Shown: positions 28,632 through 35,152 of the stretch, piece by piece | How the letters are laid out: the number at the start of each line of letters is the position of its first letter | Position numbering within the stretch: position 1 is the stretch's first letter | Source of the DNA: Candidatus Nitrosopumilus sp. | GTDB lineage: Archaea > Thermoproteota > Nitrososphaeria > Nitrososphaerales > Nitrososphaeraceae | Direction: 5' to 3' | Length of the DNA: 51,520 nt | Assembly: GCA_013694585.1 (NCBI GenBank) | Contig: JACDCB010000013.1 | Span: 1-51,520 of the forward strand | Program-made: the position numbers and the translations under genes | Notes under the pieces: generated by a model | Told to the model about the DNA's origin: nothing | The model's input: the letters and a program-made list of their open reading frames with translations, nothing else | Databases searched by the model: none

Positions 28632-31424
28632 TCAATTATCCCAAAATCCTCTAGTCATTACATATTGTTTTTCAGCTTCATAGATTGTTTTCAACAAGTT
28701 CTCATCATCAGTATAGTTACGCAAGATCCTAGCACAAGTATCAGCTCCAATTCCATGACCCGATAACACAAAAACGGCCATTTTCCCAAAATTATTTATT
28801 AAAGAAGCTATTTTCCAGGCCCTATCAAATTTATGTTCTTCATCTTTTGAGAGCAAAGCTCCAGTAATTTTCCGACCAATAATATTACCCAGATCGCCAT
28901 CCTTCCAAAAAGTAGCCGCGACTAATTTGGATTTACAGAATGGACAACCCAATTTGCTAGGTATATCCTTAGTTTCAAATATCCTTTCCCATTTGCCACA
29001 TCGCATGCAAATTAACTTATGCTTTGTTTTGGTCAAGCGTTCCTTTACCAATTCTAATATCCCATTTTCTATGCCAAGTGGGGCCGAAATTGATTTCTTA
29101 GAGCGTGATAAGATAGGTTGAGCCAGTCCGGAAAATTCACGAGTGTCTACCCAGTGTAAATTGATGGCTCCAGATTTTATATCCTTAATTATTTGGGATG
29201 TCTTTTTTACATCATACTTATCGTGGATTAATTCCCTAATGGATTCCTTACTAAGAGAGGTCTTATAATATCTATCGTAAAGCATGCGAGCCACCCTTTT
29301 ATCGTAAATAGACTCTTTTTTTATAATTCCAAATCGCTTTGCTACACCCCACACTTTCCAATTGATATTATACGTTCCACTAAAAGAGGCTATTAGTACT
29401 GATTCCACATCAAATTCATCATCAAACAATGAAAAAATATGATTCTGTCTTAATCTGATATTCACAGAACTTAATAATATCCTATATGGATCTGATCTAG
29501 TTTCAATTATATAACCAGTCTTTGATGAAAGGAATGTAGACAGTAATGAACCTAAGGTGTTATTGATTTTTGAACCAAGGGTACTGTGGATTACTATAAT
29601 ACTTTCGGTAGGTATAGTCTCAAAGACCAGATTCGAGGAATCTGGAATGATATCCAGCGATTTCATATTCTTTGACATATTATCTATTATCTTCGGATCT
29701 GTATCAGAGAAACTAACATCAATTTTTTTGGAATTCTCTGACCTAATTTTTTTTCTTAATTTGCCTACCATCATCGCAGTTTCATAATCGACTGGTATCA
29801 TCTCCCCTACCCAATATGGAACATTAATTGGAGCACCGCTTAGAGGTTCAACGTGAACTTGAAATTTCCCCTCATCTATTACTAATATTCTCCATTGTGA
29901 GCCTTTTAAGACAAAGACATTCCCTTTTTCTCCGTAATCTCCCACAAATTGTTGATCCAAAGTACCTATTCTCTTTTTTGATATCGAATCAATTACTTCG
30001 AACTTTACAATGTGTGGTATAGTTGAAACATTTTCATAATAGTATCTATAAGACTTTCCAGTCCTTGTAATATGTTTTTTTTCCACGTCTAATCGGATTA
30101 GAAAACTATTTACGAGTATATTTATACAATCGATGAAATCAAAATATGATAGCGATCTGAATAAGTGAGCAGAAGAAAAGGCATCATATAATTTTTCTAA
30201 ATTCAACTTTTCTCTAGTTTGCAACGTCATTCCGACTATATTATGTGCCAACACATCGAGTGGACATTCATGTGGAATTTGATCTTCAATGGATCCTCTT
30301 CTAACTCTTTGGATTATACTCAGTGACTCTAAAAAATCATCATAGTTATTTGTAATTATCAACCCCTTAGCTGATGATCTCCGAGTATGCCTACTACGGC
30401 CAATCCTTTGTATCAATTTTGATACCTGTCTTGGGGATCCATAATGTATTACAAGATCAATTGATCCGATATCTAATCCCAATTCAAGGGAAGAGGTACA
30501 TACCACAATTCCAACGAAACCACTCCTCAAAAAATTTTCAGTTTCTTCTCGAGCATCTCTGGATAGAGAACCATGATGGACCTGAACTTGTAAATTACTC
30601 TGATTTTTCAACACGGTACTCATAAATTCAGATTCATCCCTGGTATTGGTAAATAACAAAACAGAAGAGTCTGAATGAGTTTTAGATACATAGTCTAAAA
30701 TATAGGTAGAAACTTCTTTAATTGATCCATCTACATGTTTAAGATCAAGATCGTATTTCCTAAGTGTTTTATCTACCAAGATTGCACATTTTCTTTTTTT
30801 TCCTACCAAAAAACGAGCTGTTTCAGCAAGATTTCCAACAGTAGCTGAAATACCTATTCTACAAAAGCCAGTAGAAAAAAAAGTCAGACGTTCGAGGCAC
30901 AATGACAGATAAGATCCTCGTTTGGACGATATGATCTCGTGGATTTCATCAATGATAACCCATCTTACCGTTTTTAGTAAATGACCCATCTTTTCATTAA
31001 CTAGCATAATTGCCAAGGATTCCGGAGTTGTTATCAGTATGTCCGGTGGATTTTGATAAATTTTTTTACGCTTGGTGTATGAAGTGTCGCCATGTCTTAT
31101 TTCGACTTTTAGATTTTCGGAAGTTGCATACTTCATGATTCTTCTAAAAACGTCGTTGTTGAGTGAGCGTTGTGGAGTAACATACAGACATCTTATACCT
31201 TCGCCACCCGCTGATTCCCCACCTTCAGCATCAGCCAACATAGTAATTACAGGAATTATAGCAGATTCAGTTTTTCCCGAACCTGTAGGAGCTACCAATA
31301 AAGAATCCCGCCTTCGTACCAAGACCTTATATGACTGGTTCTGGATGGAAGTTAATTTTGCAAAAGATTCTTTTGAAAATTTATTTAATATATGTTGTTC
31401 TAACTGAGCGTAACTACTTTTCAA
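28632..31424 (-). CDS. Lhr-type superfamily 2 helicase
   Basis: Large DEAD/DEAH-box helicase of 930 residues. Walker A is APTGSGKT (45-52), motif II DEIH (159-162), then SATVGN (motif III). The helicase C domain has GFVGIVVCTSSLELGLDIGSIDLVIHYGSPRQVSKLIQRIGRSRHTR. A winged-helix and long beta-rich domain typical of Lhr-core follow. Near residues 800-840 there is a Cys4 zinc-ribbon-like unit (CMRCG and CPFCK). Lhr proteins unwind DNA or RNA:DNA duplexes in repair or RNA metabolism. The gene overlaps a small membrane-protein gene at its start by 11 bases. Confidence 0.92.
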   Translation of the reverse strand: MKSSYAQLEQHILNKFSKESFAKLTSIQNQSYKVLVRRRDSLLVAPTGSGKTESAIIPVITMLADAEGGESAGGEGIRCLYVTPQRSLNNDVFRRIMKYATSENLKVEIRHGDTSYTKRKKIYQNPPDILITTPESLAIMLVNEKMGHLLKTVRWVIIDEIHEIISSKRGSYLSLCLERLTFFSTGFCRIGISATVGNLAETARFLVGKKRKCAILVDKTLRKYDLDLKHVDGSIKEVSTYILDYVSKTHSDSSVLLFTNTRDESEFMSTVLKNQSNLQVQVHHGSLSRDAREETENFLRSGFVGIVVCTSSLELGLDIGSIDLVIHYGSPRQVSKLIQRIGRSRHTRRSSAKGLIITNNYDDFLESLSIIQRVRRGSIEDQIPHECPLDVLAHNIVGMTLQTREKLNLEKLYDAFSSAHLFRSLSYFDFIDCINILVNSFLIRLDVEKKHITRTGKSYRYYYENVSTIPHIVKFEVIDSISKKRIGTLDQQFVGDYGEKGNVFVLKGSQWRILVIDEGKFQVHVEPLSGAPINVPYWVGEMIPVDYETAMMVGKLRKKIRSENSKKIDVSFSDTDPKIIDNMSKNMKSLDIIPDSSNLVFETIPTESIIVIHSTLGSKINNTLGSLLSTFLSSKTGYIIETRSDPYRILLSSVNIRLRQNHIFSLFDDEFDVESVLIASFSGTYNINWKVWGVAKRFGIIKKESIYDKRVARMLYDRYYKTSLSKESIRELIHDKYDVKKTSQIIKDIKSGAINLHWVDTREFSGLAQPILSRSKKSISAPLGIENGILELVKERLTKTKHKLICMRCGKWERIFETKDIPSKLGCPFCKSKLVAATFWKDGDLGNIIGRKITGALLSKDEEHKFDRAWKIASLINNFGKMAVFVLSGHGIGADTCARILRNYTDDENLLKTIYEAEKQYVMTRGFWDN

Positions 31425-31741: not shown

Positions 31742-33646
31742 GTGATTCAATTGTACTCGAGGTCCTTTGAATCGAGCCAGAACTTGCAAGAAAGTCAATC
31801 TGTAATGGCAACAATTTTACAGAATCTTCCTAAAGAATGTTCTCTGACCAAAATTGAATATGAGGGTCCTAGAATCGCCCTCCACACAAACAAACCTCAA
31901 TTTTTACTCGAGAATAACAAAATACTGTCTAATATAGTAGGCCAAATAAAAAAACGAATAGTATTAAGGATCGATGAAACCATCAGAATTGACGAGAGCG
32001 AAGTTCAAAAAGTAGCTGAAAAGCATGTTCCTCAGGAATCAGGCATAACTGAAATATTGTTTGATCCTGCGTTGGGAGAAGCCACTATATTTGTAAAAAA
32101 AATATCTGAAATAATAAAAGATGAAAAGATCATAAATAATATCATCTTAGAATCAGGTTGGAAAATATCATTTAAAAAGACCCCAAAAAACATGGTCACA
32201 ATCAAGAATATTAACAAGATTATTAGAAATGCTTCAGACTATCGCATTCAGTTTTATAAGAGAATAGGTGAGAAAATATTTCGTGAAAAATTAGATCCAA
32301 ATATTGAGGCCAATTTGAACTCATTGGGAGGATTTGCAGAAATAGGTAGATCGTCAATGATATTGAGCACCAATGAAAGTAACGTTTTACTGGATTGTGG
32401 TATGAACATATATACCAAAGATCCTCTGTCTAGGTTTCCACGATTTGATTCAACTGGAATCAAGCTTTCTGAAATCGATGCTGTTTTGTTAACACATGCG
32501 CATTTTGACCATATAGGATTTTTGCCTATGTTATTCAAGTACGGTTACGATGGTCCTGTATATTGTACAGAGCCCACTTCGTACCTAATGTATATTCTTT
32601 ATAGGGAGTACATCAAACATTCCGGATCTGAAGCACATTATACGGACAAGGAATTCGAAAAGATTTTTTCGCATCTAATTCATCTAAATTATAATATCGT
32701 TACGGATGTTTCTCCTGATATTAAAGTTACATTTTACAATGCGGGACATGTTATTGGTTCTTCGTCATTTCATCTCCATATAGGAAATGGAGATCACAAT
32801 TTTGTTTATACTGGGGATATAAAATTTGGAAAAAGTTCATATTTGGAAAATGCAGTATGGAACTTCCCCAGAGTAGAGACACTACTAATTGAAGGAACAA
32901 ATGGTGGGAGAGAAGACTCATATTTGTCTCGAGAAGATGCACAAGAAAGATTAATAGAAGTTATCAATAAGGTGATCAGGAATCAAAAATTAGTTTTGAT
33001 GCCCGCTCAGTTAATTGGAACCTCTCAAGAATTACTCATTACACTGGATATGCTTATTAAACAAAAAAAAATAATGAAATGCAAATTATATATTGAAAAG
33101 TTGATAACCGAAATCAATTCCACACACGAATTCAACTTGGAATTCTTAAATCGAGAGTTACAACAATCCATCATTTCGAATGATTATAATCCCTTCCGCT
33201 CTAAAAATATAGCATCAATTTTAGACATAACTACACAAAAGTTGGACCCGGGCATCATCATTTATCCTTCTTCAATGTTAAATTGCAGCTACTCCAAGGA
33301 TTACTTAAAAAGGATATCAGGTGATCCTGGAAATTTGATAATTTTCACGTCGAAACCAACGGGTATGACATTAGGGAAAGAAATTATGGATGGGCAAAGA
33401 AAGTTATCTTTAAACGACGAAGACTTTGAGATAAGGTGCGCTATTGAAACAATGTATTCATTTAATTCGCATTCTGATTTTAATCAACTAAATGCATACA
33501 TTTCTAGACTTAGACCGAAGCTTAGAAAAATATTGGTAAATCACGGCGAGAGATCCAAAGTGCAAAACTTTTCTGGTTATTCTAGCAAGGTTCATAACAT
33601 TTCAACACAGTACTTGCAAAATCAAGAATCCATAAAATTATTGTAA
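31742..33646 (+). CDS. Divergent aCPSF1/FttA-type beta-CASP metallo-beta-lactamase nuclease paralogue
   Basis: KH-domain beta-CASP protein of 634 residues, the size of archaeal aCPSF1 (FttA), the factor that cleaves RNA for transcription termination. The metal motif THAHFDH (251-257), NAGHVIGS, YTGD, the motif A acid in IEGT, HSDFNQL and VNHGE are kept, so it is probably a working nuclease. It differs from canonical aCPSF1 in several places. The KH2 GxxG loop is lost (KKISEIIKDEK where GKxG is expected), EGTNGG replaces ESTYGG, and GTSQE replaces GRAQE. It is therefore likely a second, specialised copy. The start is GTG; an ATG at 31805 is an alternative. Confidence 0.85.
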   Translation: MIQLYSRSFESSQNLQESQSVMATILQNLPKECSLTKIEYEGPRIALHTNKPQFLLENNKILSNIVGQIKKRIVLRIDETIRIDESEVQKVAEKHVPQESGITEILFDPALGEATIFVKKISEIIKDEKIINNIILESGWKISFKKTPKNMVTIKNINKIIRNASDYRIQFYKRIGEKIFREKLDPNIEANLNSLGGFAEIGRSSMILSTNESNVLLDCGMNIYTKDPLSRFPRFDSTGIKLSEIDAVLLTHAHFDHIGFLPMLFKYGYDGPVYCTEPTSYLMYILYREYIKHSGSEAHYTDKEFEKIFSHLIHLNYNIVTDVSPDIKVTFYNAGHVIGSSSFHLHIGNGDHNFVYTGDIKFGKSSYLENAVWNFPRVETLLIEGTNGGREDSYLSREDAQERLIEVINKVIRNQKLVLMPAQLIGTSQELLITLDMLIKQKKIMKCKLYIEKLITEINSTHEFNLEFLNRELQQSIISNDYNPFRSKNIASILDITTQKLDPGIIIYPSSMLNCSYSKDYLKRISGDPGNLIIFTSKPTGMTLGKEIMDGQRKLSLNDEDFEIRCAIETMYSFNSHSDFNQLNAYISRLRPKLRKILVNHGERSKVQNFSGYSSKVHNISTQYLQNQESIKLL

Positions 33647-33671: not shown

Positions 33672-33959
33672 TCAAGGTGTATCTTGATTGCTTTGCCATA
33701 TTTTTACTTCAGGAGGTGTAATTATAATACGTTCTTCACCCAATCTTGCAATATCGCCCCCTAATATGGTAACGGATTTATAAAGATCTTCCACGACTAA
33801 TTTAAGCTCTCCAACGTCTCTCTGTGCCAATGGTGTTATTCTGATAATAATTATCATATTTTTTTCGATATCTCTTTTAATTTCAACAATATCTTTTGAA
33901 TTACGAAGTGTAAATGTCTTTAAATAAATAGGCCTTTCCCCAATTTTCTTTGCTTGCAT
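33672..33959 (-). CDS. sepF: SepF-like cell-division protein
   Basis: Small protein (95 residues) of the SepF/DUF552 family, which in other archaea anchors FtsZ to the membrane. The core reads YLKTFTLRNSKDIVEIKRDIE, then MIIIIRITPLAQRDVGELKLVVEDL and SVTILGGDIARLGEERIIITPPEVKIW, the archaeal SepF pattern. The usual N-terminal amphipathic membrane-targeting helix is hardly present, so membrane binding is doubtful. It lies downstream of the PP-loop gene on the same strand, separated by 83 bases. Thaumarchaeota divide mainly with Cdv proteins, so the role here is open. Confidence 0.82.
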   Translation of the reverse strand: MQAKKIGERPIYLKTFTLRNSKDIVEIKRDIEKNMIIIIRITPLAQRDVGELKLVVEDLYKSVTILGGDIARLGEERIIITPPEVKIWQSNQDTP

Positions 33960-34042: not shown

Positions 34043-35152
34043 TCAAATTCTGTAATCTTCTACTTCATTTTTTGTGCATGGTTGAGATGATATTGTCCTA
34101 AGTAATTTTTGTCTTCTATTAACCACTGAAACTTCGTACTTATCTTCCGCTTCCGTATCAGAGTAACGCAAGGTAATCCTTATGGATAATTCCAATAGGT
34201 TCTTATGTTTTCGTAAATCTGGATGGACATTTAGTCTCAATATAGATGTTGGACCTGGAACTGTCACCGGCTGTACTAAATAATCAGTATCATTGCACAA
34301 GGATTTTATCATTTCATTCTCAGCATGATTCCGCCCTACAATTAGTTTTGACAAGGAGTTTAGTCTAAAGTGCCTACCTATTTTCAAGAGTTCTACATCA
34401 TTGATACTTGGCTCCGGAACAGAAAATTTGAATAGATCCCTAACTCTTTTTGAAAATTGAGGATCTGTTAAAAGACATCCACCAGCAGAATTAGGCGGGT
34501 CTGCGATTCCATATTTATCGGCTAAATCTAGTTGGCCTTTCCTAGAACGTCCTCGTATGGATCCAAGCATTGAACGATTTATTAATCCATTGTTTTCCGG
34601 ATTTGTTAAGGGCAACAACCGTGCCGATAATGGTCTAAGCACCTTCCCTTCCATTTGAGTGCCTTTTTCAATGATAGATAGAGCGTTTGAATTTTGACTC
34701 ATCGGTCTCTGATGTAGGACTTCACCGGTAATGATAAAATCGGCTCCAATTTCTTCCATGTGTTTCTTAGCTTCATCGTACATCATCATTCTACAGTCAA
34801 TACAAGGATTCATCCCAGAACCATATCCATGTTTAGGATTCTTTAACATGGTGAGGTATTCCTTTCCTAAGTAAACGGTTTTCAACTTGATGTCAAGTTC
34901 AGAGGCAACTTCTAGAACCTTATGTCCACACCCCTTCCCACAATCAAAATCGCAGAAAGGCGTCTTAATCGCAACTGCCTCCACCTCAATACCTTGTTCC
35001 TTCATCATCCTAACTGCCAAGTGGCTGTCTAGACCTCCCGATAATAATGCTACTGCCTTAGTTTTTTCCTTATCAGTTGTATCTTTGGTACAATGGTTAA
35101 GCAGTTCTTTTTTTTCTTCCGATATGGATTTCGTTGAAGTTGATTTGAACAT
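34043..35152 (-). CDS. PP-loop ATPase, probable RNA or sulfur-transfer enzyme
   Basis: ATP-pyrophosphatase-fold protein of 369 residues related to MnmA/ThiI-type tRNA thiolation enzymes. The PP-loop SGGLDS is at 38-43. There are many cysteines: Cys67, Cys71 and Cys75 in TPFCDFDCGKGC, Cys117-x2-Cys120 in NPCIDC, and Cys226 in SAGGCLLTDP. The CxxC plus distant Cys arrangement resembles cluster-bearing sulfur transferases. The conserved ITGEVLHQRPMSQ motif is found in this TrmU-like group. It follows pop5 by 43 bases, within an RNA-processing gene string, which supports a tRNA target. The exact substrate is unknown. Confidence 0.8.
   Translation of the reverse strand: MFKSTSTKSISEEKKELLNHCTKDTTDKEKTKAVALLSGGLDSHLAVRMMKEQGIEVEAVAIKTPFCDFDCGKGCGHKVLEVASELDIKLKTVYLGKEYLTMLKNPKHGYGSGMNPCIDCRMMMYDEAKKHMEEIGADFIITGEVLHQRPMSQNSNALSIIEKGTQMEGKVLRPLSARLLPLTNPENNGLINRSMLGSIRGRSRKGQLDLADKYGIADPPNSAGGCLLTDPQFSKRVRDLFKFSVPEPSINDVELLKIGRHFRLNSLSKLIVGRNHAENEMIKSLCNDTDYLVQPVTVPGPTSILRLNVHPDLRKHKNLLELSIRITLRYSDTEAEDKYEVSVVNRRQKLLRTISSQPCTKNEVEDYRI

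Follow-up and report, generated by a model that had tools for sequence, protein, structure and literature searches.

Two aCPSF1/FttA proteins in the archaeal family Nitrososphaeraceae: line of descent and a tentative division of labour

The window gene and its locus

The window, the whole 51,520-nucleotide stretch of DNA analysed here, encodes on its forward strand a 634 amino acid protein with a GTG start (31742..33646) that is a member of the aCPSF1/FttA family by open reading frame, TIGR03675 profile, and structure matches. In a profile search it scores 597.7 bits against the TIGR03675 aCPSF1 model, above the cut-off of 580.2; it carries the Pfam domains KH_TffA, Lactamase_B_6, Beta-Casp, and RMMBL; it matches T. 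kodakarensis FttA (9bct_J) over nearly its full length with an E value of 2.1e-120; and almost the whole of it aligns with solved aCPSF1/FttA structures (2ycb, 3af5, 9bct, and 2xr1). An AlphaFold2 model built from 11 sequences has a mean pLDDT of 67, supporting the overall fold only, and its top Foldseek matches are eight aCPSF1/FttA chains with TM scores (by query length) of 0.80-0.85. The architecture is KH1-KH2-MBL-beta-CASP, with KH1 assigned by Pfam and KH2 by alignment and model.

The features that concern us all lie on the forward strand. The tandem KH half occupies residues about 19-146 (31796..32179), where KH1 is the Pfam KH_TffA match at residues 19-82 and KH2 retains its secondary structure in the model but lacks a GxxG motif; alignment to solved aCPSF1 places SEIIKDEK (residues 122-129; 32105..32128) where other aCPSF1 have their KH2 GxxG loop. 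Metal motif 2, HAHFDH (residues 252-257; 32495..32512), is intact here and changed in the corresponding proteins of genomes G189, G319, G172, and G127. Alignment further identifies motif A as IEGTNGG (residues 383-389; 32888..32908); GTSQE in place of GRAQE, with loss of the arginine at position 427 (residues 426-430; 33017..33031); PSSMLNCSYS in place of TSGMLEGGPx (residues 509-518; 33266..33295); a shortened loop (residues 556-566; 33407..33439) at the position of Tko FttA R572, numbered through the 9bct_J alignment and described as an RNAP-stalk contact in PMC11616081; and the C-terminal 15 residues (33599..33643) at the position of the aCPSF1 dimerisation motif, whose role in dimerisation is described in PMC8716108. 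The initial annotation had reported SEIIKDEK, EGTNGG, and GTSQE together with intact metal-binding motifs, and all of this is borne out: each of the ten metal or active-site residues checked (motifs 1-4, A, B, and C) is present.

Downstream on the reverse strand lie a SepF-like gene (33672..33959; Pfam SepF), which marks the ancestral aCPSF1 locus, and a conserved neighbour, a ThiI-like gene with an NFACT-R_2 RNA-binding domain (34043..35152; Pfam). Upstream and divergently oriented is an Lhr-type DEAD/DEAH helicase gene (28632..31424, reverse strand; open reading frame and Pfam), a neighbour to which the initial annotation had drawn attention. The gene is indeed there, but its adjacency is lineage-specific: Lhr adjoins the window-type gene in the three genus-g1 regions compared, lies five genes off in G135, and is elsewhere in G070. 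We therefore rejected Lhr as a partner of the window protein.

Two aCPSF1 genes in one family

A check of the rest of the genome, proposed in the initial annotation, did locate a canonical aCPSF1: contig C163 encodes a 708 amino acid protein that keeps ESTYG, GRAQE, and the other canonical motifs and is 39% identical to the window protein over the catalytic part, so that the genome holds two types. A 420-residue beta-CASP protein on contig C91 of the same genome we take for aCPSF2. Below, W denotes the window type, C the type found on contig C163, S the single-copy proteins of the remaining families in the order, and O the proteins of other orders of the phylum.

The W and C pair marks one family, Nitrososphaeraceae (f1); other families mostly have one copy. 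Among 201 genomes sampled evenly across the order, C is present in all 52 Nitrososphaeraceae genomes, 49 of which have at least two matches, and the 149 genomes of other families have one match in 138 cases, none in 9, and two in 2 (G079 and G126). In a sample of the phylum comprising 120 genomes besides that of the window, 115 have exactly one match, 3 have none, and 2 have more than one (two in G206, three in G279 with 7% contamination). W is present in 65 of 70 f1 genomes, 63 at E<=1e-135 and two (G163 and G199) as pieces at contig edges. Four of the five f1 genomes without W are 65-66% complete; in the fifth, G004, two neighbours of W, the ThiI-like gene and Lhr, were likewise not found, so that the absence is probably an assembly gap. 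A scan with C returned 48 loci from Ca. Nitrosocosmicus, Nitrososphaera, Nitrososphaeraceae, Nitrososphaerales, Nitrososphaeria, Nitrosopolaris, and Thaumarchaeota; it also returned one locus labelled Nitrosopumilus and one labelled Nitrosopumilales, which were matched to the f1 contigs G011:C300 and G122:C1.

Several observations on copy number may be recorded here. The draft genome G079 has two visibly alike S-type genes (L232 and L233), from either a strain mixture or a recent duplication. Neither an aCPSF1 at E<=1e-60 nor an Spt5 was found in G020 (family f3, 97% complete), although the f3 member G036 has aCPSF1; contigs may be missing from G020, or the loss may be real. Two otherwise well conserved C genes, L190 (G100) and L050 (G001), contain an in-frame stop that is either a sequencing error or real. 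Spt5 gave one match in 17 of the 18 f1 genomes searched and two equal-scoring matches in the window's own genome, G000 (C181:7798-8214 and C67:4685-5101), perhaps an assembly repeat. With one Spt5 per genome, G000 aside, W and C would share it, and we rejected a duplicated Spt5 as a partner of W.

Which copy is the older resident can be read from trees and from gene order. W groups with the S proteins of f2 and f9, two families that we take for the other ammonia oxidisers, with support of 100/100 in one whole-protein tree, full or starred support in the other whole-protein trees, 100 in the catalytic-half tree, and 98 in the KH-half tree. C lies outside all S in the whole-protein trees (96/97, SH-aLRT 98, and 95) and more weakly so in the part-protein trees (85 catalytic-only, 83 KH-only). 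An AU test disfavours W and C as sisters (p 0.019) and does not reject C within the W-f2-f9 clade or C with other S (p 0.18 each), the tested clades having been named after the tree was seen. S_G045, which carries GRSQE, was left out of the tree with 22 further S. A row filter on motif 2 (H[SA]HxDH) removed the W rows of G189, G172, and G127, and W_G130 lay outside that set; W_G013, S_G029, C_G001, and C_G100 were left out as short. The part-protein trees, two of the whole-protein trees, the AU tests, and the divergence, column, and KH2-loop counts thus refer to the remaining rows.

Gene order agrees with the trees. The SepF-like gene lies near aCPSF1 in 9/10 W regions and 8/9 S regions, and the ThiI-like gene in 9/10 W regions and 5/9 S regions (the W region of G048 went unscored because of the motif filter); both are downstream of W in nine of the ten regions, and both are missing in G192, whose W region has five upstream gene families in common with S. 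Nor could the SepF-like, ThiI-like, or other W/S neighbour families be found in any of 8 C regions. The psmB gene, directly upstream of S aCPSF1 in 9/9 regions (L165-L173), no longer accompanies W and has another location in the f1 genomes searched. Tree and gene order together identify W as the vertically inherited thaumarchaeal aCPSF1 and C as the added copy, which reverses the initial annotation's view of the window gene as the paralogue.

Four other leads concerning these loci were dropped. A Site-2-protease gene beside C seemed a possible trace of the ancestral locus, but the G019 neighbour is only 26-29% identical to the genes beside C and gave no match at E<=1e-20; psmB does not adjoin C, being located elsewhere in the f1 genomes searched; one scan found no viral contig encoding a relative of C that would point to a viral origin; and no psmB-aCPSF1 fusion was seen behind the long open frames of G139, G144, G171, and G102, the upstream part of the 960-residue G102 frame not being aCPSF1.

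Where the two proteins have changed

The KH2 GxxG loop, whose break the initial annotation read as the mark of a paralogue, is absent from 43/43 W, 37/37 C, and 26/26 S rows and from 22 further S sequences; it is present in 13/13 O rows in the form G-K/R-x-G, with C in place of the first G in one of them. Being absent from every W, C, and S examined, the loop cannot serve to define aCPSF1/FttA within this order. A single loss before the order diversified would be the simplest account, and the order-wide absence is worth knowing in its own right. The aCPSF1 of Ca. Cenarchaeum symbiosum, described as able to substitute for the M. maripaludis protein and to respond to U-tracts (PMC7515710; PMC8716108), would also lack the KH2 loop, judging from its relatives. 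In two single-copy aCPSF1 of family f2 (L036 in G019 and L242 in G046), a long acidic insert occupies the position of the lost loop. That W is a derived paralogue whose KH domains recognise RNA differently for want of GxxG is hardly tenable: two copies do exist, but the loop is missing in all members of the order examined, and W is the ortholog by both tree and position.

The main change in W lies instead in the catalytic half. Over 31 genomes carrying both copies, the divergence of W is 3.6 times that of C for the catalytic half and 1.8 times for the KH half. The ratio of catalytic to KH distance is 0.91 for W, 0.45 for C, 0.56 for S, and 0.85 for O, with W exceeding C in 460/462 pairs; ratios and rates together indicate that constraint on W, compared with its sisters, has relaxed chiefly in the catalytic half, while the KH half of W also evolves faster than that of C. 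Of the 143 catalytic columns whose invariance in S and O reaches 95% or more, W keeps a mean of 69% and C 94%, and 42 are lost in most W versus 8 in C; among 25 near-invariant KH columns, W keeps a mean of 89% and C 83%, and 3 are lost in most W. Most of the loss has occurred outside the KH half, to whose RNA recognition the initial annotation had pointed. Mean identity to S is 46% (catalytic) and 44% (KH) for W, and 57% and 38% for C; W and C of the same genome are about 41% identical in the catalytic half and 34% in the KH half. Pfam scores run the same way, KH_TffA giving 68 and 83 bits for two W, 51 for C, and 78 for one S, and Beta-Casp giving 56 and 79 bits for two W, 93 for C, and 109 for one S. 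C has a median of 49 residues before the first KH helix versus 18 in W, a linker of 30-61 residues between KH and MBL versus 5-6 in W and S, and a different C-terminal sequence; that of W is like S.

Individual motifs sharpen this picture. The GRAQE arginine is found in 0/62 W rows, and GRAQE is kept in 37/37 C, 26/26 S, and 13/13 outgroup rows (76/76), confirming the initial annotation's suspicion that this change is peculiar to the W type; one S beyond the 26-row set has GRSQE. The G and the E of SGMLEGG are each kept in 0/43 W. The RNAP-stalk loop has fewer than 16 residues in 60/61 W rows and exactly 16 in 76/76 C, S, and outgroup rows, the W of G086 having an insert in the loop instead of a shortening. 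Motif A is less telling than the initial annotation supposed: E-G for E-S is there in the window protein, but single-copy aCPSF1 of another family (L228-L231, from G139, G144, G171, and G102) also have EGTYG, and no second copy was seen in those genomes.

All ten metal or active-site residues are kept in 55 of 62 W rows; the W of G013 is truncated, and six rows are changed. G189 and G319 have D256S and D359E in common, plus H252Q or H601N; G130 and G305 have H601Q in common; G172 has D256G and E384D; and G127 has D256G. Mapped on the tree, four changes are needed, of which at least three are forced by supported branches, and two of the cases are each common to two genomes, which speaks against sequencing error; the assemblies behind these changes are drafts, G172 and G127 each stand alone, and the reading frame of G130 is broken. 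The metal-changed W have a KH identity to S of 44%, the same as other W, and keep the C-terminal sequence; KH1 is kept in five of the six, that of G130 being in another frame. C has all ten residues in 37/37 rows, including the C of G189, G172, G127, and G130, and of the 48 C loci 42 have all eight motif patterns and the other six are cut or stopped.

Among close relatives, dN/dS is 0.055-0.127 in seven W pairs and 0.034-0.093 in six C pairs; the metal-changed pair G130/G305 gives 0.13, and for G189/G319 pN is 0.16 and pS 0.75, with dS saturated. Judged by these ratios, selection on W is still purifying. We accordingly consider it very unlikely that W is a relic on its way out after C took over: its faster evolution, its metal-site changes, the frame break in G130, and the truncation in G013 all point that way, but dN/dS is low, retention is steady across 65 of 70 genomes, and the five exceptions are four genomes of 65-66% completeness and a fifth that also lacks the neighbours of W.

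A possible division of labour

The FttA dimer of the solved termination complex is described as asymmetric: cutting and RNAP contact fall to the proximal protomer, the KH1-KH2 domains of the distal protomer hold U-rich RNA, and R572 of the proximal Tko FttA touches RNAP, its change to alanine impairing RNA cleavage (PMC11616081). In M. maripaludis, termination is described as not being restored by aCPSF1 variants that lack either the KH domains or the last 13 residues (PMC8716108). Our best reading, to which we give somewhat less than even odds (roughly 0.45), is that W is the distal, RNA-holding protomer and C the proximal cutter, in the manner of CPSF100-CPSF73 or INTS9-INTS11. FttA/aCPSF1 would then be divided in Nitrososphaeraceae between two proteins: C, with its canonical cutting residues and RNAP-facing surface, would be the proximal, cutting protomer; and W would serve termination as the distal, RNA-holding protomer, its active-site groove having lost conserved substrate-side residues, its stalk loop having been shortened, and its metal residues having changed in four lineages, while its two KH domains are retained together with a C-terminal sequence resembling the one in single-copy proteins. 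The most economical form of such a division would be a C-W heterodimer. We infer both the C-W partnership and the proximal and distal roles, and W in the window's own genus, with every metal residue present, may still cut. By a further and somewhat less probable step, the family would have turned a homodimeric termination factor into a two-subunit machine, in which the ancestral gene became the RNA-holding non-cutter and the second gene the cutter.

Several results count against the best reading. The 55 of 62 W that keep all ten residues, the window's included, do so as an active enzyme would; the W catalytic/KH ratio of 0.91 is close to the outgroup value of 0.85; the KH half of W evolves 1.8 times as fast as that of C, so that in absolute terms KH is not the half under better protection; W exceeds C only slightly in the KH columns it keeps (89% versus 83%, over 25 columns); and C keeps KH1 (Pfam, 51 bits) and could homodimerise.

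The main rival, which we think somewhat unlikely, holds that W is a separate and still active RNase acting on another substrate, for example in mRNA decay, and uncoupled from RNAP, with a C homodimer alone terminating transcription. The retention of the ten residues in most W suits it, as do the shortened stalk loop in 60/61 rows, the altered substrate-side residues, and purifying selection; but metal-site changes in four lineages that nonetheless keep KH domains and C-terminus fit conserved catalysis poorly. That W and C both terminate as separate homodimers, on different transcripts or under different conditions, seems to us improbable: it is favoured by both copies being near-universal in the family and under purifying selection, but W lacks the features of a proximal protomer, namely the GRAQE arginine, the stalk loop, and in four lineages the metal ligands.

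Whatever their roles, soil ammonia oxidisers of this family have two aCPSF1, and it is the vertically inherited one whose conserved active-site residues are being lost. aCPSF1 has been characterised as a ubiquitous protein, inherited vertically and usually present in one copy, and as a suitable taxonomic marker; of 1,964 genomes, 1,873 are reported to have a single copy, while 56 haloarchaeal genomes and 35 'unclassified' archaeal ones have two or three (PMC8653824). Nitrososphaeraceae may be among those 35. We found no description of the W/C pair in the open-licence literature searched, a review on Asgard archaea included. TIGR03675 scores for five other W are above the cut-off in two cases (667 and 664), exactly at it in one (580.2), and below it in two (564.9 and 545.0), so that automatic annotation and trees built on this marker can be led to the wrong gene. 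The pair further amounts to a natural experiment, both on the asymmetry of the FttA dimer in the cryo-EM structure and on the origin of CPSF73/CPSF100-type pairs.

Compared with known systems, W is like aCPSF1/FttA (TIGR03675; 9BCT; M. thermautotrophicus MTH1203, 2YCB) in architecture, fold, metal residues, ancestry, and locus, and unlike it in lacking the KH2 GxxG (a trait of the order), the GRAQE arginine, and SGMLEGG, in its shortened stalk loop, and in coexisting with a second aCPSF1. Haloarchaeal aCPSF1 duplicates, described as 60-100% alike and present in 56 of 366 haloarchaeal genomes (PMC8653824), likewise give two copies per genome, but W and C are far less alike, at the 41% and 34% given above, and near-universal in their family. 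Methanococcus maripaludis aCPSF1b (MMP1381) is described as a putative, non-essential beta-CASP RNase (PMC9430280). It resembles W and C, by description only, as a further beta-CASP RNase named after aCPSF1. Bacterial RNase J1/J2 are paralogous beta-CASP RNases thought to cooperate, one of them weakly active; they differ from W and C in belonging to another subfamily and in having no KH domains. CPSF100 and INTS9 are diverged beta-CASP homologues, each partnered by an active one, CPSF73 and INTS11 respectively. W may resemble them in that metal-site residues have changed in some W (6/62 rows, in four lineages), though not in the window protein, and differs in that most W keep the metal residues, KH domains are present, and the putative pair arose within one archaeal family. 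If the proposed division of labour is correct, the CPSF73/CPSF100 arrangement would have arisen within archaea independently of eukaryotes and been caught partway, with metal ligands already lost in some lineages and kept in others.
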